Part shown: positions 3,812 to 20,777 of the stretch, one piece after another
How positions within the stretch are numbered: position 1 is the stretch's first letter
Layout of the letters: every line of letters begins with the position of its first letter
DNA from: an uncultured Desulfohalobiaceae bacterium
GTDB taxonomy: Bacteria; Desulfobacterota; Desulfovibrionia; Desulfovibrionales; Desulfothermaceae
Reading direction: 5' to 3'
Assembly (NCBI GenBank): GCA_913055815.1
Contig: CAJXKR010000004.1
Coordinates: 1-32,319, forward strand
DNA: 32,319 nt
Notes under the pieces: model-generated
The model's database searches: none
The model's input: the letters and a program-made list of their open reading frames with translations, nothing else
Told to the model about the DNA's origin: nothing
Translations under genes and position numbers: made by a program

Positions 3812-4035
3812 TATACTATCGCCCCAAAAACCGCGGATTTTGAACCTTCTCAAATAATTATTTAGTATTGTTGTTTCTTGCCCTAAGTACAGCATTCCCC
3901 AAAAAGGCACAAACCCGGGTTGAGGTTCAGATAGGCAGATTGGGTAGATAAAAATATGTTTTCGCACTACAAAATCATTTCCGGTCCTGATTCCAAAAAA
4001 AACAAAATCACTATATTGCATTGCAAATAAATTGC

Positions 4036-4064
4036 TTGACAAAGTAAACAATGTTATTTAATTA
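4036..4064 (+). promoter_or_regulatory. Putative sigma70 promoter for the phasin-like gene
   Basis: A perfect -35 TTGACA (4036-4041) is followed after 16-17 nt by A+T-only sequence (TTAATTA) that could act as a poor -10. It would give a roughly 35-nt leader before the GGGAGG ribosome-binding site. The rest of the 3812-4105 spacer shows no gene. Confidence 0.4.
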
Positions 4065-4105
4065 TTAAATGTCTTTTGACTAAATATAAAAAAAGGGAGG
4101 ATGTC

Positions 4106-4369
4106 ATGCAACAAATAAATCGTGCCACCATGCAAATGCTGGATTTTCAAAAAGGTGTTCTAAATAGTTTGTTCGATGCAACCTACAAGATTCAACTTCA
4201 AACCGAAGCAATGACAAATGATGTTATCGAGCGCTATGCGAGCTTTGCACCGGCAGGTACAACTGCAGCACTAAAAGGCTATATGGAAATGTGCAAGCTA
4301 GGTAGAGAAAATGTGAAGCAATTGATGGATCTGAATTTCAACAACTTGAGATCCTATTTTGAAAACTAG
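4106..4369 (+). CDS. Small phasin-like protein
   Basis: The ORF track starts at 4076, but the ATG at 4106 is preceded by GGGAGG (4095-4100) at 5-nt spacing and is the better start, giving 87 residues. The protein is a helical, Met/Gln-rich polypeptide without a signal or membrane segment. The pattern MLDFQKGVLNSLFDATYKIQ, then ASFAPAG, then CKLGRENVKQLMDLNF resembles phasin-family proteins, which coat polyhydroxyalkanoate granules or act as small helical scaffolds. It is monocistronic, with its own putative promoter and terminator, consistent with an abundant structural protein. No PHA synthase is in the window, so granule association is inference. The fold resemblance is moderate and it could be another small helical protein. 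Confidence 0.6.
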   Translation: MQQINRATMQMLDFQKGVLNSLFDATYKIQLQTEAMTNDVIERYASFAPAGTTAALKGYMEMCKLGRENVKQLMDLNFNNLRSYFEN

Positions 4370-4380
4370 TTTAGTTTAGC

Positions 4381-4403
4381 GGGCTACATGCTAATTGTAG
4401 CCC
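4381..4403 (+). terminator. Putative Rho-independent terminator after the phasin-like gene
   Basis: A perfect 8-bp inverted repeat GGGCTACA / TGTAGCCC with a 7-nt loop begins 11 nt after the stop codon and is followed by a T-rich run (CTTCCTTTTTGTTT). Confidence 0.65.
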
Positions 4404-4834
4404 AATACTTCCTTTTTGTTTCCAACCTGAGCAGAATCTTGACCCCCCCCCCTTTGAAAACTTGTTTCCCCAGTACTTGCAAGTTAACTTTCATTTTTTA
4501 GTGGATGCAGAACGGGCAATCTCTCCAACATAACTTGCCAGAATATTTAGCTAACACGCTAAGTTAGCTGTAATTTTTTATTTTAACTGGACTGTCAAGA
4601 TTCATAACTATTTGAAATATTATTGTGTTTCCTTGTCTGATTTGGGCATGCTAGTCCCTTAATGTAATTATGCAAAATCAATGGAAATTTTCTCTTGTAC
4701 TTAAAACTTGAAACTTTTACTAGATTCCAACTGCATCTGGAAAAATCCACCGCAAAAAGAGGGAAAATTCACTTGTTCTATTAATTATATTAGTGTATAG
4801 GCATTAGAAAATTTATGCTCTAGGGAGGTCGGAA
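4404..4834. other. Intergenic region with homopolymer C tract and a second hairpin
   Basis: No ORF is supported here. A run of ten C residues lies at 4443-4452. A perfect 7-bp inverted repeat AGCTAAC / GTTAGCT (4549-4569) is followed by GTAATTTTTTATTTT and could be a terminator on the + strand. Near the right end TTGTTC and TATAGG are separated by 17 nt and could be the promoter of the crotonase gene, whose ribosome-binding site AGGGAGG lies at about 4821-4827. Each of these assignments is weak. Confidence 0.35.
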
Positions 4835-5614
4835 ATGAAATATGAAAACATTGAGCTGGAAATAGGCGAGGATTTTGTCGCCCGGGTAACTCTAAATCGC
4901 ACTGAACAGCTAAATACTTTCAATACCCCTATGGCCCTGGAATTACAAGAGGTATTGAACGAACTAGACAGCAACACAAGCGTACGAGTGATTTTGATTA
5001 AAGGTTCGGGCAAGGCTTTTTGTGCAGGAATTGACCTTAAGGAATTTCATAATCAAACCCCAATGCAGTACCGGGAGTGGATTGAAACCATGGAAAGACC
5101 CTTGTCCACTATCACTCGGATGAACAAACCCGTGCTCGTCCAGGTACACGGGGTGGCTGCAGCAAACGGGGCAGGGTTGGTTGCAGCTGCGGATCTGGCC
5201 ATAGGATCCCAGGATGCTAGGATAGGGCTTACAGCCATCAATGTGGGCTTAAATTGTGTAGGTCCTGTTGTGCCGGTGAGTAAATGTGTAGGTAGAAAGC
5301 AGGCCTTGGAAATGCTTTTTTACGGTGAATTGCTAGGGGCCCAACAAGCCATGGATATGGGATTGTTCAATAAAATAGTGCCTTCTGAGGAACTAGAACA
5401 AGAAGCAGAGAAATGGGCAACAAAACTAGCCCAAAAAAGTCCTTTGGCAGTAGAAAACGCAAAAAAATCGTTTTATACAGCTGCAGACATGGAGTACCAG
5501 CAGGCGGTGCAGTATATGAACGAAGCGTTTTCCAGGCTTTGTACAACAGAAGATGCCCAGGAAGGGATCTCTGCCTTTATGGAAAAGAGGCAGCCTCAGT
5601 GGAAGAAAAAGTAA
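4835..5614 (+). CDS. Enoyl-CoA hydratase/isomerase (crotonase) family protein
   Basis: A 259-residue cytoplasmic crotonase-fold protein of normal family length. The CoA/oxyanion-hole motifs are clear: GSGKAFCAGIDLKEF (about residues 52-66) and GVAAANGAGLVAAADLA (about 105-121). The usual first catalytic glutamate, expected in the PEI.LG position, is replaced: the segment reads ARIGLTAINVGLNCVGP. The second glutamate position (ALEMLFYGE) is retained. This pattern resembles the ECHDC3-like subgroup more than a standard fatty-acid hydratase, so the reaction is uncertain; it may be a CoA-thioester isomerase, a hydrolase or a non-catalytic member. AGGGAGG precedes ATG 4835. The gene ends 12 nt from the convergent ion-channel-like gene. 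Confidence 0.85.
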   Translation: MKYENIELEIGEDFVARVTLNRTEQLNTFNTPMALELQEVLNELDSNTSVRVILIKGSGKAFCAGIDLKEFHNQTPMQYREWIETMERPLSTITRMNKPVLVQVHGVAAANGAGLVAAADLAIGSQDARIGLTAINVGLNCVGPVVPVSKCVGRKQALEMLFYGELLGAQQAMDMGLFNKIVPSEELEQEAEKWATKLAQKSPLAVENAKKSFYTAADMEYQQAVQYMNEAFSRLCTTEDAQEGISAFMEKRQPQWKKK

Positions 5615-5626
5615 ATATCCCCAGTT

Positions 5627-6622
5627 TTAGTGTTTATGTTTCCATTGTTGGATAAGTACCTGTTGTTTAACTATTTCTAGGGATTGAATAAGCGTGTCCG
5701 ATATCACCTTGTTGAGATCAATGTCTTTATTTTCCTCCACGATTGTTTGGAAAACGACCTCTGTGATTTCATCAATTGCTTGTTCTAGTTTGTAAGAATT
5801 TATATCCTGCATGGTATCGTCCAAAACATTGAAAATTAGCTCACTTATTATACTCTCTAGGTTACGATTTACTTTTTGTCCCAGAATAGGTAGGTAACCG
5901 ATAGTAGATATTTTCTTGTTTTTATAAACTGCCTTTTTAATACGCATGTTTATATAACTTCTGACTTCTTCTTTGTAGACAGGATATTGATTTTGGACAG
6001 CTTTGTACAATCCAGAGGAAAGCCAGGATATAACTTGGGGTTTTTGGGACCTAATGATATTGTGGTTGATTTGTTCTATAACCTGGCTTTCCCCGCTCAA
6101 ATGTTCTTGTACTCCGTTGATCATTTTTACAGTTACCCGGTCAGTGATCTCTTCAGTCAATGCATCAAGGTACTTATATATTTTTTTGTATATGTAAGTG
6201 TTTGTAAAATCGATAAGATGTAAGCGCTGTAGCCTGAAAAGAATGGATACTATCCTGATAATTCTAAGAAAGCGTAGAGTACCTATAGGAATACATCCAA
6301 GGGTATCGTACCAGTGTACAAAAGGATAAAAAAACCAGCTGTGGTAAGTTTTTTTATATATGGATATTCCCCACCGGATTAGGATCTCAGAGACAAATAT
6401 GCCCACAAAGAAAAGGTCGTAGTAGAAAAAGTGTCTATGAATAGGGGTATAAAAGTGGTTAAAGCTGGAAAGATTGTTTGCTAAAAAAAATTCTACTGCC
6501 GGAATAGAATAGATCCAGTCAAATACGATCCAGGATAAATTTACCATCAAGATTAACATCATAATTATGTCAAAGAAAAAATAAACTAATTGCTTGGAGT
6601 CCAAGTCGCGCAGTGATATCAT
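5627..6622 (-). CDS. Voltage-sensor-like integral membrane protein (ion transporter family)
   Basis: A 331-residue protein. The N-terminal half has about four hydrophobic segments: around residues 11-35, a longer aromatic stretch near 64-86, one near 92-110, and the S4-like segment. The S4-like segment LRFLRIIRIVSILFRLQRL (about 117-135) has basic residues at three- to four-residue spacing, as in voltage sensors. No S5-P-S6 pore with a selectivity filter follows. Residues about 145-331 are instead a soluble, helical, charged tail (DRVTVKMINGVQEHL, EEVRSYINMRIKKAV). Similar bacterial proteins are annotated as ion transporter or voltage-sensor-only proteins. The substrate is unknown. The gene is convergent with the crotonase gene and separated from fdhA by a hairpin. 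Confidence 0.65.
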   Translation of the reverse strand: MISLRDLDSKQLVYFFFDIIMMLILMVNLSWIVFDWIYSIPAVEFFLANNLSSFNHFYTPIHRHFFYYDLFFVGIFVSEILIRWGISIYKKTYHSWFFYPFVHWYDTLGCIPIGTLRFLRIIRIVSILFRLQRLHLIDFTNTYIYKKIYKYLDALTEEITDRVTVKMINGVQEHLSGESQVIEQINHNIIRSQKPQVISWLSSGLYKAVQNQYPVYKEEVRSYINMRIKKAVYKNKKISTIGYLPILGQKVNRNLESIISELIFNVLDDTMQDINSYKLEQAIDEITEVVFQTIVEENKDIDLNKVISDTLIQSLEIVKQQVLIQQWKHKH

Positions 6623-6712
6623 AAGCCACCTCAGATATAGTCTGCAGGAATGTACTTTCTTCGGAATGTGCTTATTATTGTAAAGGCAGGCAAGAGTTGG
6701 GATTAATTTTAG

Positions 6713-6736
6713 TCCCTGGCCTTATTGGACCAGGGA
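6713..6736 (-). terminator. Hairpin downstream of fdhA, possible end of the Hdr-Fdh cluster
   Basis: TCCCTGGCC pairs with GG(A)CCAGGGA around the loop TTATT, about 10 nt beyond the fdhA stop on the - strand. It is strong but lacks a good U-tract (CTAAAATT follows), so it may be a Rho-dependent or mRNA-stabilising 3' end. Confidence 0.45.
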
Positions 6737-6746
6737 AAGATTTGCG

Positions 6747-8783
6747 TTAACTTGCTTTGTCTAATTTTACCGCGCATACTTTGTATTCCGGTATTTTGGC
6801 TATGGGATCAATGGCGGGATTGGTCAATTCATTGGCATTGCTTTCCACAAAATGAAAGGGTAGAAATACAGTTCCCGGTTCAACACGATCGGTCACCAGG
6901 GCAGAGATTTCGATATTACCCCGCCTGGAGGAGACCTGAACCTTGTCTTTCTGCGATATTTGGAGCTTGTCCGCGTCTGCGGGATTTATTTCTACAAATC
7001 CGTTTTCAACCGCAGAATTCAGTGTGGGCGAATTCCTGGTCATTGTACCAGTATGATAGTGGGCAAATACGCGACCGGTGGTTAGCCACAAGGGGTATTC
7101 TTCATCCACTGTCTCTGCAGGGGCCTTGTGTTCTATGGCGTGGAACTTGCCTTTTCCACGTGCAAATCCGTCCTTGTGCAGGTATTTGGTCCCGGGATGG
7201 GACTGATCGGTACACGGCCACTGCAGGCCCTCGCCTTCCAGGCGCTCAAATGTTATGCCACCGTAGGATGGGGTCATTTCGGCTATTTCCTGCATGATTT
7301 CTTCTGCCGAAGAATATTGCATGCTGTAGCCCAATTTGTTGGACAAATCTTGGATAATTTCCCAATCCCTTTTGCTCTCACCCACGGGCTCAATTGCTTC
7401 TCTTACCCGGCTCACACGCCTTTCAGTATTGGTGAAAGTCCCTTCCTTTTCCGCGAATGAGGCACCGGGCAGTACCACGTCTGCCAGTTCCGCGGTCTCG
7501 TTCAGGAATATGTCCTGTACAACTACTAATTCAGAGTTTTGCAACGCCTTGCGGACGTGATTGCAATCAGGATCACTCATTACCGGGTTTTCTCCCATGA
7601 CGTAAAGTGCCTTGAGCGAACCGTCCTCAAGTCCGGCAATCATTTCCGGTATGGCAAGCCCGATCTGATTGGATAGCTCAGCGTTCCAGGCCTGGGAGAA
7701 TTTTTGATTGATATTTTCATTGTTTACCGCTTGATAACCGGTAAAAACATTGGGCAATCCGCCCATGTCGCACGCCCCCTGGACGTTGTTCTGGCCTCGC
7801 AGGGGATTTACCCCGGTGGCATATTTGCCCACGTTTCCGGTTAACATGGCCAGGTTGGCGAGTGATTTCACGTTGTCCACACCAGTGGTGTGCTGGGTTA
7901 TGCCCATGCAGTAAACAATAGAGGAGGTCTCGGCAAGGGCAAAGTATTCGGCAATCTTTTCGATGTCCTGTTTGTCTATATTGGTAATCTCGGATACCTT
8001 TTCCGGGGAGTAGTTTTGTATTTCCTTTTGGAAGTCTTCAAAGTCCTCGGTGTAATTATCTATGAATTCCCTGTCCTCCCAGCCATTTTGCAGGATTACG
8101 TTCATTATGCCGTTCAAGAGGGCCACATCGGTGCCCAATTTTTGATGTACCTGGATATCTGCAATGTCCCCGATTTGTATCTTGCAGGGGTCTGCCACTA
8201 TTACCTTGGCACCTTTCTCCTTGGCCCGGAATATGCGGGAAGCTATGATCGGATGCGAGGAGGTGGTGTTTGAACCGGTAATAAAAATGCACTTGGCATC
8301 TTCCAGTTCGTCGATGGAATTAGTCATCGCTCCGCTTCCAAACGAGGCGGCAAGCCCTGCCACCGTGGAAGAATGTCAGAGCCGCGCGCAGTGGTCTATA
8401 TTGTTAGTACCTATCCCTGCCCGGGCAAACTTCTGGAAGACGTAGTTCTCTTCATTGCTCACCTTGGCGGAAGCCAAAAATCCGATGCTGTCCTTGCCGT
8501 GGTTATTTTTGATTTCCTTTAGCTTGGATGCGGTATAATCAAGGGCTTCCTCCCAGGAAACCTCGGTAAGCTCACCCTGTTTTCTAATCATGGGCTTGGT
8601 AAGCCTTTTTTTGCTTTGCACGAACTCGTGCACGTTCCAGCCTTTTATACACAGGGTTCCCTGGTTTACAGGACTGGTTTTGCAGGGTATGGTACCCACA
8701 ACTTCCCCGTCCAAAACTTCCAGATAGAAGTTGCACCCGCACCCGCAATAGGGACATGTGGTAAGTACTGTTCTATAGTCCAT
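6747..8783 (-). CDS. fdhA: Formate dehydrogenase catalytic subunit, selenocysteine-containing
   Basis: The track shows two pieces (6747-8363 and 8376-8846) in the same frame, separated only by a TGA at 8378-8376. Read as Sec, the product is 678 residues, the usual size of a cytoplasmic molybdo/tungsto-formate dehydrogenase. The start chosen is ATG 8783 (MDYRTVL), with GGAG 7 nt upstream. The N-terminal [4Fe-4S] ligands TCPYCGCGC and GTLCIKG are followed by the bis-MGD domain. The active-site stretch is DHCARL-U-HSSTVAGLAA with Sec136, exactly where FdhA/FdhF carry Sec or Cys. The C-terminal molybdopterin dinucleotide-binding domain is complete. No Tat signal is present, so it is cytoplasmic. 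It is the last gene of the Hdr cluster and would feed electrons from formate to MvhD/HdrA. Confidence 0.96.
8346..8364 (-). promoter_or_regulatory. Putative SECIS hairpin for fdhA Sec136
   Basis: On the transcript, GGTGGCA / TGCCGCC (7 bp, one G-U) encloses the loop GGGCT. Counting the U of UGA as 1, it spans nt 15-33, the spacing seen in the E. coli fdhF SECIS. Confidence 0.7.
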
Positions 8784-9155
8784 GTTATGACTCCATGTTC
8801 GAAGTTCGATGTTAATATGAAAAAGTTTTAGGGTTTTATGGTTCAAGGTTCCACGTTCACGGTTGAAGAAAATATACCCAGCTAGATAATCGAGTTCCCC
8901 AATTTTCTAATTCTCTAATTTCTCTGCACTAATTCCCAATTCTCTTAATAACACTACAGCGAAAGTTACTTTTTATATCCGTCATTCCAGTGAAAGCAGG
9001 AACCTAGACAAAGAACTGGATTCCGGCCTTCGCCGGAATGACAAGAATGGTTGCAATTCAAAGTTTCACTGTAGTGATAACCAATTTTCTAATTCTCCAA
9101 TTTTCTCTGCACTAAAAACCAATTCTCTAATTTCTTTGCACTAATTATCTAGTCT
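8784..9155. other. Repeat-rich spacer between the FdhB-like gene and fdhA
   Basis: This 372-bp spacer has no ORF worth keeping. It contains CCAATTCTCTAATT-type pyrimidine-rich repeats at about 8890-8945 and 9080-9150, flanking a 125-bp MITE-like element. Next to fdhA lies low-complexity sequence (GGTTTTATGGTTCAAGGTTCC). Confidence 0.6.
8952..9076. mobile_element. MITE-like 125-bp inverted-repeat element
   Basis: The ends are CACTACAGCGAAA and TTTCACTGTAGTG, inverted repeats that match at 12 of 13 positions. They are flanked by ATAA on both sides (8948-8951 and 9077-9080), a possible target duplication in A+T-rich DNA. The interior contains CCGGCCTTCGCCGG, a short hairpin, followed by AATGAC. 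A partial relative lies at 22678-22724. No transposase is encoded. Confidence 0.6.
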
Positions 9156-9944
9156 CTAGCCAACCACATTGAACGGTGGCTTTTGTTCATCAGTAATACC
9201 GGTGGTATAGCCAAAGTCCTGTTCCATGATTTCCGACACCTTCTTGTAAAGCGTACGCAAGGGAATATCAGCTGGGCAGGCTTCTTCGCAGAGTCCGCAA
9301 TCTATACATCTGCCTGCCATGTGTACCGCCCTGGTCAAGTGGAATATGGGATTTTCAGGGGGAAGATTATAAGTTTGTATCAATTGCTGGTTTTCCAGGC
9401 TGCATTCGTTACAGAAGCACATGGGGCATACATCCCTGCAGCCGAAGCATTTGACGCATTTGTCGAATTCCTTTTGCCAGTATTCCATTCTCCCTGGAAA
9501 ATCCATTTCCTCTACGGTATCAACTGAATTGAAAGATACAGGGTTGGCTTTTTCACCAAAGCCCTCGGTATTGGTGTATGGCTGAAAGCATTCACATTTG
9601 TCAGCCAATTCCTGGGGACAATTGATACCCACCAAAACAACCTTGTCCAGATCTATTTGGTTCCAGATATGCAGGGCATTTAATCCCCTTTCATCGCATC
9701 CGCGTACCAGAATACCAAAGGTGTCTTCCGGATATTTCCTGCTCAATGTAACCAGGATCTTGTCCAAAGGGTATCTGCTGTCCCCGGGTTGTTCTTTTTC
9801 CCCCAGGTTCAGATTTTCCAATTCCTCTTCAGTGGTGAAAAAGTGCGGCCCGATGTGGCCGTTTTTTTCAACAAGGCCGATAAAGCCTTTTATTTGCTGG
9901 GAAGCAAGTAGTTCTTTTACTTTGGATTTTACCTCTTCAATCAT
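9156..9944 (-). CDS. FdhB-like two-[4Fe-4S] electron-transfer protein
   Basis: A 262-residue soluble protein. Residues 1-150 form a domain resembling the beta subunits of F420-type hydrogenases and formate dehydrogenases (FrhB/FdhB), with Cys83, Cys109, Cys117 and Cys119 as scattered extra cysteines. Residues 163-181 (CVKCFGCRDVCPMCFCNEC) are very Cys-rich. Residues 213-223 carry a second ferredoxin motif, CIDCGLCEEACP. Together they predict at least two [4Fe-4S] clusters. Its position between mvhD-1 and fdhA suggests it wires formate dehydrogenase to MvhD/HdrA. No nucleotide-binding motif is obvious to me, so direct use of F420 or NAD is not supported. The start at 9944 has only a weak ribosome-binding site. 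Confidence 0.75.
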   Translation of the reverse strand: MIEEVKSKVKELLASQQIKGFIGLVEKNGHIGPHFFTTEEELENLNLGEKEQPGDSRYPLDKILVTLSRKYPEDTFGILVRGCDERGLNALHIWNQIDLDKVVLVGINCPQELADKCECFQPYTNTEGFGEKANPVSFNSVDTVEEMDFPGRMEYWQKEFDKCVKCFGCRDVCPMCFCNECSLENQQLIQTYNLPPENPIFHLTRAVHMAGRCIDCGLCEEACPADIPLRTLYKKVSEIMEQDFGYTTGITDEQKPPFNVVG

Positions 9945-10223: not shown

Positions 10224-10667
10224 CTAGGCAGCACCCTGCAGCTTAATATCACCGGATTTCAGAGGTGAAGGCCCCAGTTTGCGCAGGGTTTCCACAAAAT
10301 CGATTACTTCCGCCTTGAATTCCGGTGCTTCGGCGGAGGAAACCCATCTGGCCCTTAGCCTCTCCTGTTCAATACCGTTGAAGGCGAGTAGTTGCTGCAG
10401 AAAATTGATCCTTTTCTTTGCGGAATAATTACCGTACAGGTAATTGCAGTCTCCCAGGTGTCAACCGCCCACAAAGATGCCGTCAGCTCCCTGCTGCAGG
10501 CCAAGCAGCATATGGTGGAAGGATACGCTGCCGCTGCACATGACCCGAATAATCCGTATATTACTCGGGTACTGAAACCGACTGACCCCGGCCAGGTCAG
10601 CAGCTGCGTAAGCTCACCAAGTACACAGGAAACTGATTATTTTGGGCTCAAAATTTTGTTCTGTCAT
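10224..10667 (-). CDS. mvhD: MvhD-like [2Fe-2S] subunit with two predicted selenocysteines (MvhD-1)
   Basis: The track misses this gene because two in-frame TGA codons break it. Reading through from ATG 10667 (GGAAG upstream) to TAG gives 147 residues covering the whole MvhD family. The N-terminus [18 protein letters not shown] has Sec18 (TGA 10616-10614) where MvhD-2 in this window has Cys ([15 protein letters not shown]). After RIIRVMCSG comes GG-U-HLGDCNY with Sec69 (TGA 10463-10461). MvhD carries electrons between the hydrogenase or formate dehydrogenase and HdrA. It lies between the hdrA-like gene and the FdhB-like gene, as expected for the formate-linked module. Conservation on both sides of both stops argues against decay. 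Methanogen VhuD is a known selenoprotein relative. Confidence 0.9.
10427..10445 (-). promoter_or_regulatory. Putative SECIS hairpin for MvhD-1 Sec69
   Basis: A perfect 7-bp stem AATTACC / GGTAATT with loop TGTAC lies at nt 19-37 from the UGA. MvhD-2 has a closely similar hairpin at the equivalent place. Confidence 0.65.
10581..10601 (-). promoter_or_regulatory. Putative SECIS hairpin for MvhD-1 Sec18
   Basis: GCTGACC / GGTCAGT (six Watson-Crick pairs plus one G-U) with loop TGGCCGG spans nt 16-36 from the first UGA. Confidence 0.6.
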
Positions 10668-10816: not shown

Positions 10817-12508
10817 TCATATCGCAGCCCTTATCTGGGCAAACAGTTGATCCGGCTTGTATCCCTTCAGCTTGATGCTGTGTGAAGGGCAAGTTGCAGC
10901 ACAGTTGCCGCATCCCTTGCAAAGGACCTCGTTTATTTCGCAGGCGTTTATTTCCGGATTGTAGGTAATAGCCTGATAGGGGCAGGTATCGATGCAACCC
11001 AAACAACCGATACAAGACTGCGGATCTATTTCCGCAACAATGGCACTGGAAACGAGCTTGTCCTTGAACAGGATAGTGCTGACCCTGGAGGCAACGCCAA
11101 TGCCCTGGGATCTGGCTTCTTCTACTGTTGCCGGGTACCTGGCGGATCCACAGACAAAAATACCGTCTGCGGCAAAGTCCAATGGCCTCAACTTGGCGTG
11201 TGCTTCCAGGAAAAAGTTGTTCTGGTCTGTTGGTACCCGCATCATCTGGGAAATCTTGCCTGCGTCTTCCCTGGCTACCAATGGAGTTGACAAAACTGCC
11301 AAATCATAGGGTAGCTCCACTGTTCTCCCCAAAATATTTTGATAAAAGCTGACCTTGTCTCCGGATAGTTCTGGCGGGTTTTCCGGATCATATACTTCGA
11401 AGTTTATCCCTTTACCCCTGGCGTCCCAGAGCATTTTCTCCTTTTCAGTTCCGTACATCTGCATGTCCCTGTACAGTATGTGGATATTAGCCTCCGGGTT
11501 CAATTCCTTCAGGTAGAGTGCATTCTTAACCGCGCTCATGCAACAGATCCTGGAGCAATAAGTCCTTTCCTCGCATCTGGCACCCACACATTGGATCATC
11601 ACGATATTCTGAGCCTGGACAGTACCCTGGGCCATTTTTGATTCAAGTTCCATCTGGGTTATTACCTTTTCACCGTCGTAACCAAATAGGCCGTGGGGTT
11701 TCAAGGGTTCGGCGCCGGTGGCTACCACTATGCAGCCTACGTTTTCCGAAATATTTTCACCGCCCTTGGTTTTCAGATCTACTTGGTAGTTCCCGATATA
11801 TCCGCCCACGCTCTCTACTTCGGTTTCCTTGTATATCCTGATATTGGAATGATGCGTAACATTGTCCACCAGTGAACTTATCCAGTCCTCGGCTTTTTCG
11901 TTGTACGGAGCAAGCTTGTTTATGGACTTAAGCAGCCCACCGAATTCCGCCTCCTTTTCCACCAGATACACCTGGACTCCCATGGATGCCAGGGCCTCTG
12001 CAGCGGATAGTCCGGCAATCCCACCTCCGATAACCAAGGCTTTGGCTACCAGGGAAGTCTGTATGTCTTCCTGGGGTTCAAGGTAGGCACTCTTGGCCAC
12101 CCCCATGCGCACTAGCTCCTTGGCCTTTTGTGTGGCGTTTTGTTGTTCCTGCATATGCACCCAGGAACACTGATCCCGGATGTTTACCATTTCGAACAGG
12201 TAGGGATTCAGTCCCGCTTCTGCGCAGGAGGATGCAAACAGGGGTTGATGGGTCCTGGGAGAGCAGGAGGCAACAACCACTCGATTGAGAGCGTGTTCCT
12301 GGATTGCGTTCTTGATCTCGTTAACTCCTGCCTCGGAACATGTATACAGATTTTCCTTGGCAAAAGCCACACCCGGCAATGAGGCCACGTACTCGGTAAC
12401 TTCGCTGCAATCCAGGTGTCCGGCAATATTGGACCCGCAGTCGCAAATAAATACACCTATTCTCACTTCGTCCTGATTGTTGTTTTGATCTGGACTTTGT
12501 TCATTCAT
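10817..12508 (-). CDS. HdrA-like FAD/Fe-S protein, second HdrA-like unit of the cluster
   Basis: 563 residues, soluble. Residues 16-140 are the HdrA N-terminal domain (RIGVFICDCGSNIAG, VVVASCSPRTHQPLF, NIRDQCSWVHM). The FAD-binding GGGIAGLSAAEAL lies at 161-173, and the CVGARCEERTYCSRICC cluster-ligand region is near 305-321. The C-terminus holds two [4Fe-4S] ferredoxin motifs, CIGCLGCIDTCP and CKGCGNCAATCP. It lacks the inserted ferredoxin and the FPTNDCAxU/C motif of classical HdrA. In size and order it matches the last 560 residues of HdrL in this window, so it looks like the separated second HdrA unit. It starts at ATG 12508 with AAGGAA upstream. It lies directly downstream of hdrA and probably works with it as one flavin-containing electron-transfer unit. 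Confidence 0.85.
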   Translation of the reverse strand: MNEQSPDQNNNQDEVRIGVFICDCGSNIAGHLDCSEVTEYVASLPGVAFAKENLYTCSEAGVNEIKNAIQEHALNRVVVASCSPRTHQPLFASSCAEAGLNPYLFEMVNIRDQCSWVHMQEQQNATQKAKELVRMGVAKSAYLEPQEDIQTSLVAKALVIGGGIAGLSAAEALASMGVQVYLVEKEAEFGGLLKSINKLAPYNEKAEDWISSLVDNVTHHSNIRIYKETEVESVGGYIGNYQVDLKTKGGENISENVGCIVVATGAEPLKPHGLFGYDGEKVITQMELESKMAQGTVQAQNIVMIQCVGARCEERTYCSRICCMSAVKNALYLKELNPEANIHILYRDMQMYGTEKEKMLWDARGKGINFEVYDPENPPELSGDKVSFYQNILGRTVELPYDLAVLSTPLVAREDAGKISQMMRVPTDQNNFFLEAHAKLRPLDFAADGIFVCGSARYPATVEEARSQGIGVASRVSTILFKDKLVSSAIVAEIDPQSCIGCLGCIDTCPYQAITYNPEINACEINEVLCKGCGNCAATCPSHSIKLKGYKPDQLFAQIRAAI

Positions 12509-12844
12509 AACTTGTTCCTTGGTGTCTGTGTATGTGTAAGCAATTGGTTATATTGATTTCGTTAATCTACTCACTGATTCTCTAAGTCTCTTTTTTCAAA
12601 CAACCAATTATCCAGTTCTCTAATTCTCAAATTTTCCAACTCTCCAGTTCTCTAATTCTCCAATTTTCTTAATCCCCAATTCTCTCTTCATTCTTAACCA
12701 ATTCTCTAATTCTCCAATTTTCTTAATCCCCAATTCTCTCTTCATTCTTAACCAATTCTCTAATTATCCAATTTTCTTAATCCCCAATTCTCTCTTCATT
12801 CTTAACCAATTCTCTAATTCTCCAATTCTCTCTGCACTAGGTAG
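12509..12844. other. Repeat-filled spacer between hdrA and the hdrA-like gene
   Basis: No ORF is seen in these 336 bp. Apart from the 54-bp tandem array (12644-12838), positions 12560-12643 contain degenerate relatives of the same AATTCTCTAATTCTCC words. Confidence 0.7.
12644..12838. repeat. 54-bp tandem repeat, about 3.6 copies
   Basis: Units start at 12644, 12698, 12752 and 12806 (last copy partial). Each reads CCAATTCTCTAATTCTCCAA followed by TTTTCTTAATCCCCAATTCTC and ends TTCATTCTTAA. Copies differ by single bases (for example TTATCC for TTCTCC at about 12765). On the transcribed strand the array is purine-rich. Confidence 0.95.
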
Positions 12845-14395
12845 TTAAGATGCCTTGCTCACTCGATCTGATCCTGAACCGCCAAGACTGGTCAAGACCT
12901 GCACCGCCCTGGATGAGGCACTGCTTGCCTGGGCTACTGACTCCGGAATATCCATGGGATCGTTGGCGCATCCACATATAAAAATACCCGGCTTGGTAGA
13001 GTCCAAGGGATTTTTGTGATCGGTTTGGAAGAATCCGAATTCGTTGATCTCTATACCCAGTATCTCAGCCAGGGGCTTGGTACTGCTGCTGGGTTCGCAG
13101 GCAGTTGCCAGGATAACCAGTTCAAATTCCTCGGATTTGACTTTCTGTTCCTTGGTATCCTCGTAGGTAAGCACCGGATTTTTGTTTGGAGATTCGGTGA
13201 TTTCCGCGACTCTTGCTCGCTTGTAGAAAACGTTGGAACTGTTTTGGCTCCTGATCTTGTATTCCTCAAAACCTTTGCCCACTGCCCGTATATCCATTCC
13301 GAAGATGGTGGAAGTGGTTTCCGGATCGTGTTCGTGGGCAATTATTGCTTCCTTTATGGAATGCATACAGCAGTATCCGGAACAAAACGGGAAGAAGCGC
13401 TTGTCCCTGGATCCAACGCACTGAATAAAGGCCAATTTGGAGGCATCCTTGAAATTCTCAGCCTGTTCCAGCAGTGGCCGCAGTGTTTCCTTGAGCCCCA
13501 GGTACTCCTCGTATTTGTCAGCCCATTTTTTCCTTTCCTTGTCTTCCGGGTAGTTGTCCTGTTTGTATTCGGAGTAGAAGGTCTCAGTGTCCTGTTGGTA
13601 TTCGTCTTCGAATTTCCCTAGGCTCTTTTCCGCCTTTTGCAGTTTTTTCTCCAGGTCCTGGATCTGATTTTTTATCCTCCGGTCAGACGGCCTCTCCAGG
13701 TGTCCCTCGGTGGGTCCGCTGGCACCCAGCATCCTCTCGAACTCCATGGATGTTAGAACATTGGGAATCTGGTTGTATCTGTACTCCGGTATCCTGGTAG
13801 GATCGAAAACCTTGTATCCGGTGGCCACTATTATGGCACCCACCTCAAGTTCCAGTAATCGGTCCTCCTGTTCGAAATTTATTGCATCTGCCTGGCAACT
13901 CTTTTGGCAGATACCGCACTTTTTACCTTGGAAATGCCTGCAGTAATCCGTGTCTATGGTGAATGTGGAAGGAATGCCCTGTGCAAACCAGCTATAAATT
14001 GCTTTTCTGTTGCTAAGTCCCTCGTTAAAGGCATCAGGTACAGTAGTGGGGCACTTGGCTGCGCAATTACCGCATCCGGTGCACTTGTCCTCGTCCACAT
14101 AGCGGGCCTTTTTGCGTACAGTGGCCAGGAAGTTTCCCGCCTCTCCGCTTATATTTTCCACTTCGCTGTAAGCAAGCAATTCAATATTTGAATGTCGACC
14201 GACATCCAGCATCTTGGGAGAGAGAATTCAAATGGCGCAATCGTTGGTGGGAAAAGTCTTGTCCAGTTGGGCCATTTTTCCCCCGATACTGGGCAGGCTT
14301 TCCACCAAGTACACCTTGTAATTCATTTCTGCCAGATCCAGGGCTGACTGTATTCCGGCTATTCCTCCACCTATTATGAGAATATCCTTGTTCAC
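12845..14395 (-). CDS. hdrA: HdrA-type FAD/Fe-S electron-bifurcation subunit, selenocysteine-containing
   Basis: The track shows only 12845-14212. Upstream, the same frame continues through a TGA (14230-14228) to GTG 14395, which has AAGGAG at 7-nt spacing, giving 516 residues. The N-terminus has the Rossmann FAD motif [33 protein letters not shown] follows with Sec56, where most HdrA proteins have Cys. Next come [12 protein letters not shown] (about 105-116) and a [16 protein letters not shown] cluster (152-167). The FAD domain then resumes with [18 protein letters not shown]. An extra segment of about 80 residues (241-319), Glu/Lys/Gln-rich and predicted coiled coil, interrupts the FAD domain; HdrL lacks it. 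It should bifurcate or transfer electrons from formate via MvhD. The classical HdrA N-terminal domain is absent here and is found in the downstream hdrA-like gene. Confidence 0.92.
14191..14206 (-). promoter_or_regulatory. Putative SECIS hairpin for HdrA Sec56
   Basis: GATGTC / GACATT (one G-U) closes the tetraloop GGTC, which resembles the GGUC apical loop of the E. coli fdhF SECIS. It lies at nt 25-40 from the UGA, slightly further away than usual. Confidence 0.55.
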
Positions 14396-14525: not shown

Positions 14526-14972
14526 TTACGCAGAAATTGTTTCACTCGATTTTTTCGTTTTGTCAAATAAATCCAAGGGGCCCAAGGATCTTATTTGTTC
14601 TGTGAATTCCTGGGCAACTTTTGCAAAAAGATTGCCTTCTGCAGAAGAAATCCACTTCAACATCATTCTGTTGGTATCGATTCCCAGTGTATCCACAAGT
14701 TCCTTGGTGGTTTCAAACATTTTTTCCGCTTTTAAATTACCATCCAGGTAATGACAATCCCCGATGTGTCAGCCGGATACCAGCACACCATCTGCACCTT
14801 TTTCAAAAGATTTGAGAATGAAGTTGGCGTTTACTTGTCCGGAACACATTACCCTGATTATCCTTAGATTGGGAGGGTATTGGAATCTACTTACTCCGGC
14901 CAGGTCGGCTGCGGAATAAGCACACCAATTGCAGGCAAATGCTATTATTTTGGGATTAAATTCTGTAGTCAT
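14526..14972 (-). CDS. mvhD: MvhD-like [2Fe-2S] subunit, selenocysteine-containing (MvhD-2)
   Basis: The track pieces 14769-15008 and 14526-14720 share one frame, joined through a TGA (14771-14769). The start ATG 14972 (MTTEFNPK) is chosen because it aligns with the MvhD-1 start; an upstream ATG at 15008 would add 12 residues. The product is 148 residues. [15 protein letters not shown] has Cys17 where MvhD-1 has Sec18. RIIRVMCSG follows, then [15 protein letters not shown] with Sec68. MvhD proteins bring electrons to HdrA. Lying just downstream of hdrL, it is probably the partner of HdrL rather than of the separate hdrA pair, so each HdrA module has its own MvhD. Confidence 0.93.
14736..14752 (-). 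promoter_or_regulatory. Putative SECIS hairpin for MvhD-2 Sec68
   Basis: A perfect 6-bp stem ATTACC / GGTAAT with loop TGGAT lies at nt 20-36 from the UGA. The stem is the same as in MvhD-1 although the loop differs. Confidence 0.65.
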
Positions 14973-15085: not shown

Positions 15086-18000
15086 TTAACAAATCTCCCT
15101 TTCCAGTGCGGTTCCCACCATGGTAAGTATTTGATCATCTTCAAAATTCCTGACCCCTGCTGCTCCGGTCGGACAAGCCACTGCACAGGATCCACAACCC
15201 TTGCAAAGTGCTGCCTGCACTCTGGCAACCATCCTACCATTGTCCAGTTCTTCCAAGCCGATTGCATTGTAGGGACATGCCTCAACACATTCTCCGCATC
15301 CACGGCACAACTCTTCGTTTACTTGTGATACTTCTCCTTCCACTGTGATTTGATCCTTGGAAAGGATCACCGCCGCCCGGGAAGCAGCTGCTTTGGCCTG
15401 GGAAATACTTTCTTCCAACGGTTTGGGGTAGTGGGCCATTCCAGTGACAAAGAGTCCATCATTGGCGAATTCCACTGGCCTCAACTTGGCGTGGGCCTCC
15501 ATAAAGAAGTTATCCTCGGTCAAGGGAAGCTTGAACATTCCGGCGATGGTGTCGTTGTCCCGGGGTACTATAGCTGAGGCCAGTACAACAAGGTCAGTGC
15601 CTATCTCCATATTTTGTTGGAGGATATGATCCTTGACCCTTACCTTTAGATCGGAATCTTCTTTTGTGACCTCTGGCTTCTCCTCTAGATTGTAGCGTAT
15701 AAATACTACTCCCAATTTCCTGGCTTCCTGATAAAGTTCCTCTCTCTGTCCATATGTCCGGATGTCCCTGTATAAGATGTATATTTGCATTTCAGGATTG
15801 TTTTTCTTCATGCTTATTGCGGATTTTATGCTATGTGTACAGCACACCTTGGAACAATAGGGGCGTTCAGGTTCCCTGGAGCCCACACATTGGATGAATA
15901 CCGCAGTATTGGCCTGTTCGATCTTGTTGCTTTTGTTAGCCATCGTTGCATCAAGATCCAAGTGGGTAAGTATCCGTTCATCTTGACCGTAGAGGTATTC
16001 CCCGGGTTTGTATTCTTCTCCCCCGGTTGCGATTATTACTGCACCGTGTTCCAGGTTGATATCGCTCGAACCAGAGACAATAGTGGTTTTGAAGTTGCCC
16101 ACGAAGCCTGAGGCCTCTTTTAACTCTGCTTGTGTATATACATCGATCAGTTTATGATCTTTTACCTTTTGGACCATATCTTTGAGTTCTTTCTGGACAT
16201 CGTCACCTTTCCAGGTGGAATTCAGGTGCAGTGCGTTCCCACCAAGTTCAGGGGATCTTTCCACCAGATAGGTGTGAAATCCCTGCTCAGCCAAACCCAG
16301 GGCAGAGCTCATTCCCGAGACACCACCTCCGATTACCATTGCGTTGTTGTTTACTCCTATGGAAGGCTGGTCCAGTGGTTGTTCCCTTCTGCATCTTGAT
16401 ATTGCCATGCTGACCAGGTCTTTTGCTTTTTCCGTAGCCTGTTCCTTTTCCCTGCTGTGTACCCAGGAGCAGTGATTGCGTATGTTGGCCATCTCGAAGA
16501 GATACTTATTCAGTCCCGCATCCTGAAGTGTTTCTTGAAAGAGGGGTTCGTGCGTCCTGGGTGTGCAAGCCCCTACCACAACCCTGTTAAGTCCCTTTTC
16601 CTGGATAATTTCCTTCATCTTGTCCTGGGTATCCTGGCTGCAGGTGAACAGGTTGTCCTCAACATATTCCACATTGGGCAGTCCCCTGACGTGTTCCACA
16701 ACTTGGGGTACATCCACTATACCTCCTATATTGGAACCGCAATTACAAACAAAAACCCCTATTCTGGGTTCTTGGTCAGCTATGTCCTTTTCCTTGGGAT
16801 ATGTCTTGGACTGGGCTTGACTCCCCCTGGCTTGCCACAGGTCCTTTTCTGCCTCACAAGCCGCTGCACTGGCTTCTACAACAGAACCCGGGATGTCCTT
16901 GGGTTCCTGAATTGCTCCGCAGGCATATATCCCGTCCCTGGAAGTTTCTACAGGATTGAAGGTGAAGTTGTCTACCAGATTGTCCTTGTCCAGGTCTATA
17001 TCCAATCTTTGACTGAGCTCAATAAACTGAGGGGAAGTCTCCATGCCGGTGGACAGGATTACCAGGTTGAAAGTCTCTTTTTGTAGTTCACCGTTTTCAT
17101 CCATGTATTCCAGGATGAGATCTCCGGTTTCTCTGTCTTCTTGCAATGAATGAATCTTGGAAGGAACAAACCTGACCCCTTGCTCGTCCTTGGCGCTCTG
17201 GTAGTATTTTTCAAAGTCCTTTCCGAATGCCCTCATGTCCATATAGAATATGGCTGTGTCCAAGGGTTCCTCGGTATGTTCCTTGGCTATCATGGATTGT
17301 TTTATTGCGTACATGCAGCAAACCGCAGAACAGTAAGCGTTGTTGCACCTGTTGATATCCCGGGAACCAACGCATTGAAGCCAAGCAATCTTCCTGGGAT
17401 GTGCGTGATCTGATGGTCGAATCAAATCTCCCTGAAATGGGCCGGTTGCACTCAGTATCCTTTCGAATTCCAGGCTGGTAATGACATTTCCAAAATTCTT
17501 GTATTGATATAGGTCCAGGTTGGAGGGATCAAAGGATTGAAAACCTGCGGACAGAATGACTGACCCTACATTCAACTCCATTTGGGCAGACTTTTGGTCG
17601 TGTTCTATTGCTTCGGTCTGGCATACTTCAACGCATTGCATGCATTCGGAACAAATGCCGCAATTTAGGCACCTATCCGCTTCTCTGCTTCCTGAATCCG
17701 GATCATATCCCTGTTCTACTTCCAGAAAGGAACACTTCCTCTCTTCCGGGTTCAATTCCGGCATGCTACACCTGGATGATTGGGTGATATCATCCGGGAT
17801 GGGACGATAATTGGGCTCTTCTGGTTCCTCGATAGGTGTTCTGCCTGCCTGCATGTCTTCACCCTGGATGTAGCGGTACATGGATTCAGCTGCTTCTCTC
17901 CCGGCAGCAACAGCACCAATAGCGATCCATGGTCCGGTTTGGGCATCTCCGCCTGCAAATACCCCGTCGAGATTAGTGGAATAAGTGATAGGATCCACAT

Positions 18001-19546
18001 CTATAGTGCCCCAGCGAGTGAATTCAAAGTCTTCCAAGTCTTCAAGCATGGATATGTCCGGTTTTTGGCCTATAGCAGGAATAACCTGATCTACTTGCAA
18101 ATCGTATTCGCTTTCCGGTATGGGTATTGGCCTCCGCCTTCCGGATGAATCCGGTTCTCCCAGTTCCATTTGAATACAACGCAGTCCGGAAACCTTTCCA
18201 TCCCTGGTTTGTATTTCCTGGGGCGCTGCCAGAAAATATATATTGATTCCCTCTTCCAGGGCTGCTTCCACTTCTTCCGGCAATGCCGGCATTTCTTCCC
18301 TGGTCCTGCGGTAGATAATATTTATCTCTTGGGCTCCCAGTCTGCATACCACCCTGGCTACGTCGATCGCTACGTTACCTCCCCCCACAATGGCTACTTT
18401 GTTTCCTATCCAGGGACTTCCAGTAGTGTTTATTTCTCTTAGAAAATCCACTCCCTGTCTAACCCCGGTTGACTTTTCCCCCGGGATTCCCAGGGGCATC
18501 CCAGTATGTGCGCCAATGGCCAGGTAAACCGCTTTGTTCCCTTGATCAAAGAGTTCGTTTAGTTGGAAGTCTCTGCCCAAAGCGGAATTGGTCTTTATTT
18601 CCACACCTAAATTGGTGATGACTTCTATTTCCTGATCCAGGATTTCACGCGGCAGTCTATGTTCAGGTATTCCCATCCTTAGCATTCCCCCTGCATGGGA
18701 ATTTGCCTCGTAAATCGTGGATTTTATACCTTTTCTGGCAAGGTGATAAGCTGCCGATAGTCCGGCTGGACCGGATCCTATAATAGCAACACTTTCTTGT
18801 TTTGTTGGTTCACAGTTTATTTGTACCTGCCTGGGATCGAATTGATCAGCTGCCAGTCTTTTCAAAGCCCGTATAGCAACTGGTTCGTCTACTTCGCACC
18901 TTCTGCAGGCATCTTCGCAAGAACGGGGGCATACCCTGCCCAAAATGCCAGGCAAAGGCAATTCTTGCATAATAATGTTCAGTGCCTGCTCGTATTTTCC
19001 CTGTTTGACCATTTGTACATATCCCTGGACATTCAATCCAGCGGGGCAGGCCTTTCTGCAAGGGGCATTGTCCAGTTTGGAAATTACATAGGCACCCGGT
19101 ACTGCCTGGGCATAGTTCCGGTAGGCAGCTTTTTGGGTAGACAGGCCCACATTGTATTCACTCTTTATTTCCACCGGGCAGACTTGTTCGCATTCTCCGC
19201 ATCCTGTACATTTGTCTGTATTAACATAACGCGGAGCTTTTTCCATATTTACAGTGAAATTGCCCTGTTCTCCCTGTACCGATTTTACCTCGGAGAGGGT
19301 GTGTATTTCTATATTGATGTGCCGGCCGACCTCGACCAGTTTTGGAGAGATGATTCACATTGCGCAATCGTTGGTGGGAAAAGTCTTGTCCAGTTGGGCC
19401 ATTGCACCACCAATACTTGAAGACTTGTCCACCAAGTAGACGTAATATCCTGAATCCGCAAGATCCAAAGCGGACTGCATTCCAGTGATTCCGCCTCCTA
19501 ATACAGCAATTGAACCTTGAATATCTTTTGGGGAACTGGATGCCAT
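15086..19546 (-). CDS. hdrL: HdrL: giant HdrA-GltD-HdrA fusion, selenocysteine-containing
   Basis: The track gives 15086-19246 and 19355-19546. They are one frame through a TGA (19357-19355), giving 1486 residues with GGGAGG before ATG 19546. Residues 1-160: FAD motif [28 protein letters not shown] (Sec64), [12 protein letters not shown]. Residues about 162-625: a complete GltD/NfnB-like unit with [17 protein letters not shown] motif [11 protein letters not shown] (about 257) and a second dinucleotide motif [12 protein letters not shown] (about 386), probably for NAD(P)H. Residues about 626-910: the HdrA FAD domain resumes ([33 protein letters not shown]). Residues about 926-1486: a second HdrA unit ending in two ferredoxin motifs. 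Similar HdrL proteins are reported in Desulfobacterota. It could exchange electrons among NAD(P)H, ferredoxin and the Hdr/Mvh chain; the direction is unknown. Confidence 0.9.
19322..19339 (-). promoter_or_regulatory. Putative SECIS hairpin for HdrL Sec64
   Basis: CTGGTCG / CGGCCGG (7 bp, two G-U) with loop AGGT lies at nt 19-36 from the UGA. Confidence 0.6.
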
Positions 19547-19661: not shown

Positions 19662-20777
19662 TTATTCCAAATGTTCAGACAAATATGTGTATATATCCTT
19701 AATATTTATTCCTATATCTGTATTGGTCTTGGAACATGAAAAATGGATTTGGCATTTAGGGCAAGCGGTTATCAATGTATTTGCACCAGTGTCTTCAGCC
19801 TCGGTAAGCCTTTCCATCTGCATGGCCTTGGAACAGCTGGAACACTCCATCCAGGCAGTTGTTCCGCAACACAGGGCACCTTCTTTGTTTCTGGGCATTT
19901 CTGTCAGAGTGGCTCCTGGTACCTGCTTGAGAATTTCTCTGGGTTGTTGGTATATACCTGACCATCTGCCCAATCTGCAAGGATCGTGATATGTTATGGT
20001 CTCTTCCTTGTCCGGTGTGAACGATATATTGGCTTCCGGAATTCTGGAAGCCAGGAGTTCGCTGAGATGTATTACTTCAAAGGGCAAGTTTCCAAAGTAC
20101 TTGGGGTAGTAGTACTTAAAGTTCATATAACCTTCCGGACAGCCGAAGATTACAGTTGATGCCCCGCTTGCCTTTATTTGTTCGATATTCTTTTTCCCAA
20201 GTTCCAGGAATTGCTCCTCGTTTCCGCTCCACAGTGCATCGTGTCCGCAGCAACATTCCTCGTTACTTATTACCGGTTCTATATCTACTTTATTCAATAA
20301 TTTAAGCATGCTTTTTGCTATATCAATACAGGAAAGATCCAGATACCTGAAGAAGATATCGTAATACGGCAGACAACCTACAAAGAGGTAATATTCACCT
20401 TGTTCACGGAATTTTCCTGCGTCTGTCGCCCATGCAGTCCTGTTTTGATTTATGTTTCCGGTTTGTAGATTTACCAAGGTATGAAAGATGCCATGATGGC
20501 TCTCGTGGGGAAAGTTGTTTCTTTCCCTGGCTTTTGCCCTATAGGAACGGATGAATTCGGGAAAGTCTATTTCCACTGGGCAGCGGTCGCTGCACCTGGC
20601 GCAGCTTAGGCATGCCCATATGTCCCGGTTTTGCAGTATGTCCTCTTCTTGTTCCTCTAATGTCCTTTTTATCATTTGCCTGGGGGAGAACCTAGTATCC
20701 ACCTGACTGATGGGGCAACTGCCAGTGCATACCCCGCATTCCATGCAATAATTGATTTGTTCGCTTGTAAGTTCCAT
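19662..20777 (-). CDS. hdrD: HdrD-like protein: HdrC + HdrB fusion with CCG domain
   Basis: A 371-residue soluble protein. The N-terminal HdrC-like part has two [4Fe-4S] motifs: C11/C14/C17/C21 (CMECGVCTGSCP) and C56/C59/C62/C66 (CLSCARCSDRCP). The C-terminal HdrB-like part has two CCG repeats. The second is complete (DPCRLG, LCCG, CPKC). The first has GCLPYY and ECCCGHD but ends GCPEG, losing the final Cys of CxxC. It may therefore bind a single noncubane [4Fe-4S] disulfide-reducing cluster, as in one-CCG relatives such as DsrK. No membrane helices are present, unlike complexes with HdrE. It is the first gene of the cluster, divergent from degP, and should be the thiol/disulfide-reactive end of the complex. 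The natural disulfide substrate cannot be read from sequence. Confidence 0.88.
   Translation of the reverse strand: MELTSEQINYCMECGVCTGSCPISQVDTRFSPRQMIKRTLEEQEEDILQNRDIWACLSCARCSDRCPVEIDFPEFIRSYRAKARERNNFPHESHHGIFHTLVNLQTGNINQNRTAWATDAGKFREQGEYYLFVGCLPYYDIFFRYLDLSCIDIAKSMLKLLNKVDIEPVISNEECCCGHDALWSGNEEQFLELGKKNIEQIKASGASTVIFGCPEGYMNFKYYYPKYFGNLPFEVIHLSELLASRIPEANISFTPDKEETITYHDPCRLGRWSGIYQQPREILKQVPGATLTEMPRNKEGALCCGTTAWMECSSCSKAMQMERLTEAEDTGANTLITACPKCQIHFSCSKTNTDIGINIKDIYTYLSEHLE

Follow-up and report, generated by a model that had tools for sequence, protein, structure and literature searches.

A conserved four-cysteine CCG1 site in an HdrD-like subunit encoded with HdrA, MvhD and formate dehydrogenase genes in a sulfate-reducing Desulfohalobiaceae bacterium

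CCG motifs are usually judged as intact or degraded. How, then, should one read a protein in which one motif is complete and the other lacks a single Cys? The question is raised by an HdrD-like gene on the reverse strand of a stretch of 32,319 nucleotides from an uncultured Desulfohalobiaceae bacterium (contig CAJXKR010000004.1 of assembly GCA_913055815.1), which we call the window. A first-pass annotation of the gene, made from the letters of the window, took the first of its two CCG motifs to be degraded and predicted that the protein holds only one noncubane cluster. Here, we ask which ligand is missing, whether its absence reflects decay, and what the answer implies for the complex to which the protein may belong.

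The ORF is complete, with an ATG start and a TAA stop, and spans exactly 19662-20777 (-). Its 371 residues form a fusion of HdrC and HdrB, an assignment based on Pfam domains and orthologues. The N-terminus matches HdrC and contains a 4Fe-4S dicluster domain (PF13183, residues 8-70; 20568-20756, -) with two motifs of invariant Cys (Cys11, 14, 17 and 21; Cys56, 59, 62 and 66). The C-terminus matches HdrB and contains two CCG stretches (PF02754, E 6e-30). These elements follow one another in a single chain without membrane helices, and the gene is linked to genes of HdrA/HdrL and MvhD, which is what defines a soluble HdrD-like fusion. Among solved structures, EtfD of Mycobacterium is the closest in sequence (9ojn, E 4e-34), and it is also the best fold match (TM 0.80 by query) of an AF2 model built from 18 homologues (pLDDT 84.1, pTM 0.87), followed by a LutA-LutB model and then by HdrB. 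Architecture, sequence matches and fold thus agree with the initial description of the protein as HdrD-like. Its scores lie far under the curated NCBIfam cut-offs of related families (50 bits against 400 for DsrK, 57 against 735 for TmcB, 50 against 750 for HmcF), and no dsrMJOP-type neighbours were found within the window.

The motifs themselves had been read correctly. CCG2 (19734-19994, -) is complete, with LCCG and CPKC: the letters DPC267, LC303-C304-G305 and AC339-P-K341-C342 provide the five Cys (267, 303, 304, 339 and 342) of an HdrB-type catalytic domain, and the stretch includes the additional conserved residues Cys312 (19842-19844), Lys341, His345 and Cys348 (19734-19736). CCG1 (20127-20384, -) contains ECCCG and ends in CPEG, reading FVGC135, then E-C175-C176-C177-G178-H179-D180, then GC213-P214-E215-G216-Y217. 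It provides Cys135, Cys176, Cys177 and Cys213, has Glu215 at 20133-20135, and carries Gly216 (20130-20132) at the place of the bridging Cys81 of HdrB, so that the protein lacks the fifth Cys that CCG1 would have in an HdrB-type catalytic pair.

To place this motif among its relatives, we took homologues from named genomes, from relatives, from 395 genomes of the phylum and from further regions that were fetched. The resulting alignment holds 91 distinct HdrD-like proteins, 69 with Glu at position 215 (Glu-type) and 22 with His (His-type). The pattern C-x-E-G (C213-x-E215-G216) occurs in 58 of the 91, down to 36% identity with the window protein, x being Pro except for Ala in two rows, and CPEG itself is present in every close orthologue. 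Residues 213 and 216 are Cys and Gly in these 58, Ser and Cys in 20, Cys and Cys in 11, Ser and Ala in one, and Ser and Asp in one. One might suspect that CPEG comes from faulty sequencing or that the gene is decaying, since the assembly is a draft, 85% complete and in 353 contigs; but the residue is identical in all close orthologues, which come from independent genomes with intact ORFs and high overall conservation. This refutes an explanation to which we give practically no credence, and the word "degraded" does not fit. Judged by its distribution, the CPEG form of CCG1 is an old, conserved four-Cys version of the site and not the product of decay.

The same alignment shows what is kept when one Cys is missing. 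All 58 C-x-E-G proteins retain the other four CCG1 Cys. Across the 91 proteins CCG1 has four Cys in 78 cases, five in 11, none in two (L002 and L083) and one to three in no case, while CCG2 has its five Cys in every row that covers it. Since the CCG1 Cys are present all or none, the four-Cys metal site appears to be kept under selection, with one Cys of the CxxC dispensable, and this speaks for a metal cluster still being bound in CCG1. In a quick tree, made with the trait columns left out, the root not inferred and some long branches (e.g. L030) unsure, six or more changes fall at position 216, three at position 213 and a single one at position 215. In L076 and L080 the loss of Cys216 is nested inside a five-Cys group and thus looks independent. 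Two relatives deserve mention in their own right. An Asgard contig (L030, Candidatus Hodarchaeota archaeon, 2811-7449) encodes an HdrD-like protein with a five-Cys CCG1 (CAEC) and the set Glu215/Cys312/Cys348, next to a fused HdrA and MvhD. A His-type HdrD-like gene (L096; G365:C219:3468-4553) has one in-frame TGA.

Which ligand is missing? Profile alignment places C213-P-E215-G216 over C78-N-G-C81 of HdrB (numbering counted on chain 5odc_B) and over C581-P-H583-C584 of EtfD. In HdrB, Cys81 and Cys234 act as bridging ligands to the catalytic irons, and the substrate displaces them (PMC13083937). The residue lost at 216 would therefore be a supernumerary bridging ligand: because Gly216 aligns with a displaceable Cys, its loss need not abolish the CCG1 cluster. 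The step from CPEG to "one noncubane cluster" is not supported, given that the lost residue is at the Cys81 position and that the other four CCG1 Cys are all-or-none. That CCG1 is empty or holds zinc, leaving a single noncubane cluster in CCG2, nevertheless has points in its favour, as one of five ligands is missing, and L002 and L083 have lost every CCG1 Cys and live with CCG2 alone. Zinc bound by four Cys would likewise agree with the all-or-none pattern. Yet the Cys of a site without a metal function should drift, whereas 89 of the 91 proteins have four or five of them and the remaining two have none. A single noncubane cluster is thus possible but less likely given this pattern, and we regard the loss of the CCG1 cluster as unlikely.

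The strongest rival to our reading comes from EtfD itself. There, a linear [3Fe-4S] cluster occupies the four-Cys CCG1, and the CCG1 loop supplies His583 as the ligand that completes the CCG2 noncubane cluster (PMC13083937). If CCG1 of the window protein held the same linear cluster, the protein could be a pure electron wire, without disulphide chemistry of its own. Among solved relatives EtfD comes nearest in both sequence and fold, and the analogy has a modest chance of being correct. The Cys that are kept differ, however: in EtfD it is the second Cys of the CC pair that is missing (Thr539), the CxxC being complete, whereas the window protein has the full CC pair and has lost the second Cys of the CxxC.

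The missing ligand could also be supplied from elsewhere, by a Cys of CCG2 or of another subunit. The first-pass annotation had named another Cys at the missing-ligand position as the finding that would count against its prediction. Within CCG1 we found no conserved spare Cys, as C149 and C175 are both variable among the aligned relatives; C175, the first Cys of ECCCG, is Cys in 10 of the 69 Glu-type proteins and Arg in 50. Both were rejected as replacement ligands. Because C175 is mostly Arg in relatives, the real CCG1 motif is, on this comparison, C176-C177-G, and C175 is a lineage quirk. CCG2 offers two candidates. Among Glu-type proteins Cys312 is present in 69/69 and Cys348 in 68/68 of those covered, as are Lys341 (67/68) and His345 (68/68); among His-type proteins Cys312 is found in 0/22 and Cys348 in none. 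But Glu-type proteins whose CCG1 has all five Cys carry Cys312 and Cys348 just as often, so the presence of these two is not tied to the loss of Cys216. The model has low confidence at residues 306-312, the loop that holds Cys312. We consider a ligand supplied in this way very unlikely.

What, then, does Glu215 do? L083 and L002 have lost the CCG1 Cys altogether, yet the former keeps its Glu and the latter its His; because residue 215 persists where this whole set is gone, it seems to follow CCG2 and not CCG1. Glu215 sits at the place of EtfD His583 and probably contacts the CCG2 cluster rather than replacing a CCG1 ligand. In the same genome as the window, a TmcB/HmcF/DsrK-like protein likewise has, as read by eye, a His two residues past the place of C213. 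At L005:2146 (contig C13 of this genome), a TGA in the frame of a TmcB/HmcF/DsrK-like protein falls precisely where the remaining CCG1 Cys would be (WLNTE-U-GHEMYA), which makes it a possible selenoprotein with Sec in this domain.

The HdrD gene heads a block that continues downstream on the same strand in the order HdrD-HdrL-MvhD-HdrA-HdrA-MvhD-FdhB-FdhA. Several of these genes were hidden or cut in the initial list of ORFs, because each is interrupted by TGA and ordinary ORF callers truncate or split such genes. The block comprises an HdrL-type fusion of HdrA, a GltD-like part and HdrA2 (15086-19546, -; TGA at 19355-19357); an MvhD-like gene (14526-14972, -, ends counted by hand from the translation; TGA at 14769-14771, VSG-U-HIGDC); an HdrA-like gene (12845-14395, -, start approximate; TGA at 14228-14230, NDCAI-U-ILSP); a second HdrA-like gene, HdrA2 (10817-12508, -); a second MvhD-like gene (10224-10667, -, ends again counted by hand; TGA at 10614-10616 and 10461-10463); an FdhB-like iron-sulfur protein (9156-9944, -), which has 4Fe-4S matches and aligns with the protein preceding FdhA in L019; and FdhA, the alpha subunit of formate dehydrogenase (6747-8846, -; TGA at 8376-8378, CARL-U-HSST), which matches TIGR01591 on both halves, with frames continuous across the TGA. 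Between the two HdrA genes, at about 12630-12825 (-), lies a short, apparently intergenic tandem repeat that translates as repeated ENWLRMKRELGIKKIGEL.

Six in-frame TGA thus occur in five genes (HdrL, MvhD, HdrA, the second MvhD with two, and FdhA) between 6747 and 19546 (-). All of them lie at places known to carry Sec in selenoproteins of these families, and the genome has a tRNA-Sec gene (81.7 bits). RNA folding after the six codons was no better than in shuffled sequences (z -0.3 to -1.2), so the Sec reading rests on the known Sec positions and the tRNA-Sec gene; we think that the six codons probably encode selenocysteine. The two TGA of the second MvhD lie in an N-terminal CxxC-like motif (LCTW-U-AYAA) and in VGG-U-HLGDC, making it a candidate double-Sec MvhD. 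Similar Hdr clusters recur across Desulfobacterota. In L019 (Desulfobacula sp.) the gene order is that of the window, the HdrA fusion lacking the GltD part, and in almost all loci whose flanks are long enough the HdrD gene adjoins fused or tandem HdrA and/or MvhD, L014 being an exception.

Could DsrC be the partner of this protein, as the first-pass annotation suggested in view of CoM-S-S-CoB being an unlikely substrate? The genome carries dsrA and a DsrC that ends in ACKMAGLPKPTGCV, with both C-terminal Cys present, which identifies the organism as a Dsr-type sulfate reducer, as had been supposed. Since the genome thus has DsrC, a DsrC-type partner is a reasonable candidate. Among 32 genomes with an orthologue, DsrC is found in 29 and DsrA above the cut-off in 29. 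In the phylum sample, dsrA is present in 27 of the 30 genomes with an orthologue versus 161 of the 365 others (Fisher p 6e-7, not corrected for ancestry). Two genomes (G131 and G167) have the HdrD gene and no match to dsrA or DsrC, and DsrC is therefore not a universal partner. In Desulfovibrio vulgaris DsrC interacts with FlxABCD-HdrABC, according to work cited in PMC10553843, and by analogy a DsrC-type thiol/disulphide partner of the HdrD-like protein is plausible.

Taken together, we favour with moderate confidence the view that the protein is the electron-transferring, HdrCB-type end subunit of a cytoplasmic HdrL-MvhD-HdrA-FdhAB complex that bifurcates or confurcates electrons, with a noncubane cluster on five Cys in CCG2, a four-Cys iron-sulfur cluster in CCG1 and DsrC as the best candidate partner. 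In such a complex, formate would feed the HdrA flavins via FdhAB and MvhD, and NAD(P)H would feed them via the GltD-like domain of HdrL. Electrons would pass between these flavins and the pair of [4Fe-4S] clusters in the HdrC-like part, next through the CCG2 cluster, and from there to or from a thiol/disulphide partner such as DsrC. The CCG1 cluster would be held by Cys135, 176, 177 and 213; as only the displaceable bridging Cys is absent, its outer iron would either stay open at all times or carry a cap from some other group. Glu215 would not substitute for a CCG1 ligand; its likely contact is with the CCG2 cluster. A bolder extension, which we advance tentatively and think rather improbable, is that C-x-E-G HdrD proteins have an undescribed CCG active site. 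CCG1 would be an open-iron noncubane cluster, Glu215 would ligate the CCG2 cluster in place of the EtfD His, and Lys341, His345, Cys312 and Cys348 would tune it or form a dithiol relay, the site being suited to a protein disulphide such as that of DsrC and not to a small-molecule heterodisulphide.

In place of a choice between intact and degraded, these results give a specific, testable map of dispensable CCG ligands. The four-Cys CCG1 is the commonest state among the surveyed HdrD-like proteins of Desulfobacterota, reached through loss of either Cys of the CxxC while the remaining core is fixed, and position 215 (Glu or His) is a marker residue, apparently associated with the CCG2 cluster. 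If DsrC is truly the partner, the complex would link the oxidation of formate and NAD(P)H to sulfite reduction with energy coupling at the level of ferredoxin, a link that has long been a gap in the bioenergetics of sulfate reducers.

Among known systems, DsrK, TmcB and HmcF resemble the window protein in having two 4Fe-4S motifs and CCG domains and in occurring in sulfate reducers, and their profiles match it weakly; a search of the open literature for a DsrK structure paper found none. EtfD (Mycobacterium smegmatis, PDB 9ojn) shares the core fold, the four-Cys CCG1, the five-Cys CCG2 and the placing of residue 215/583 in the CCG1 loop. It differs in being membrane-bound, with heme, and in having His583 and Cys584 in that loop and Thr in the CC pair, where the window protein has Glu215, Gly216 and both Cys of the CC pair. 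In methanogens (PDB 5odc, 8rvu, 7bkb) HdrB and HdrC are two separate subunits and both CCG domains of HdrB have five Cys; in the window protein the halves are fused and Cys81 is Gly. The genes of HdrD1-4, HdrL and MvhD of Desulfobacterium autotrophicum HRM2 are also similar, a likeness drawn from the published description. That description (PMC2702500) presents soluble HdrC-HdrB fusions without a membrane part, HdrL as a fusion of HdrA and glutamate synthase, MvhD following HdrA or HdrL and, at some loci, genes of FdhAB; many of the proteins are selenoproteins, and the HdrL/HdrD/MvhD clusters contain Sec. The HdrA-FdhAB clusters of ANME archaea, as given in PMC9012536, have multiple or fused HdrA, FdhAB-like genes and occasionally an HdrD-like protein; confurcation has been proposed for them, and they differ in being archaeal. 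Because such neighbourhoods have been described in both HRM2 (PMC2702500) and ANME archaea (PMC9012536), the Hdr neighbourhood of the window is of a kind already known.
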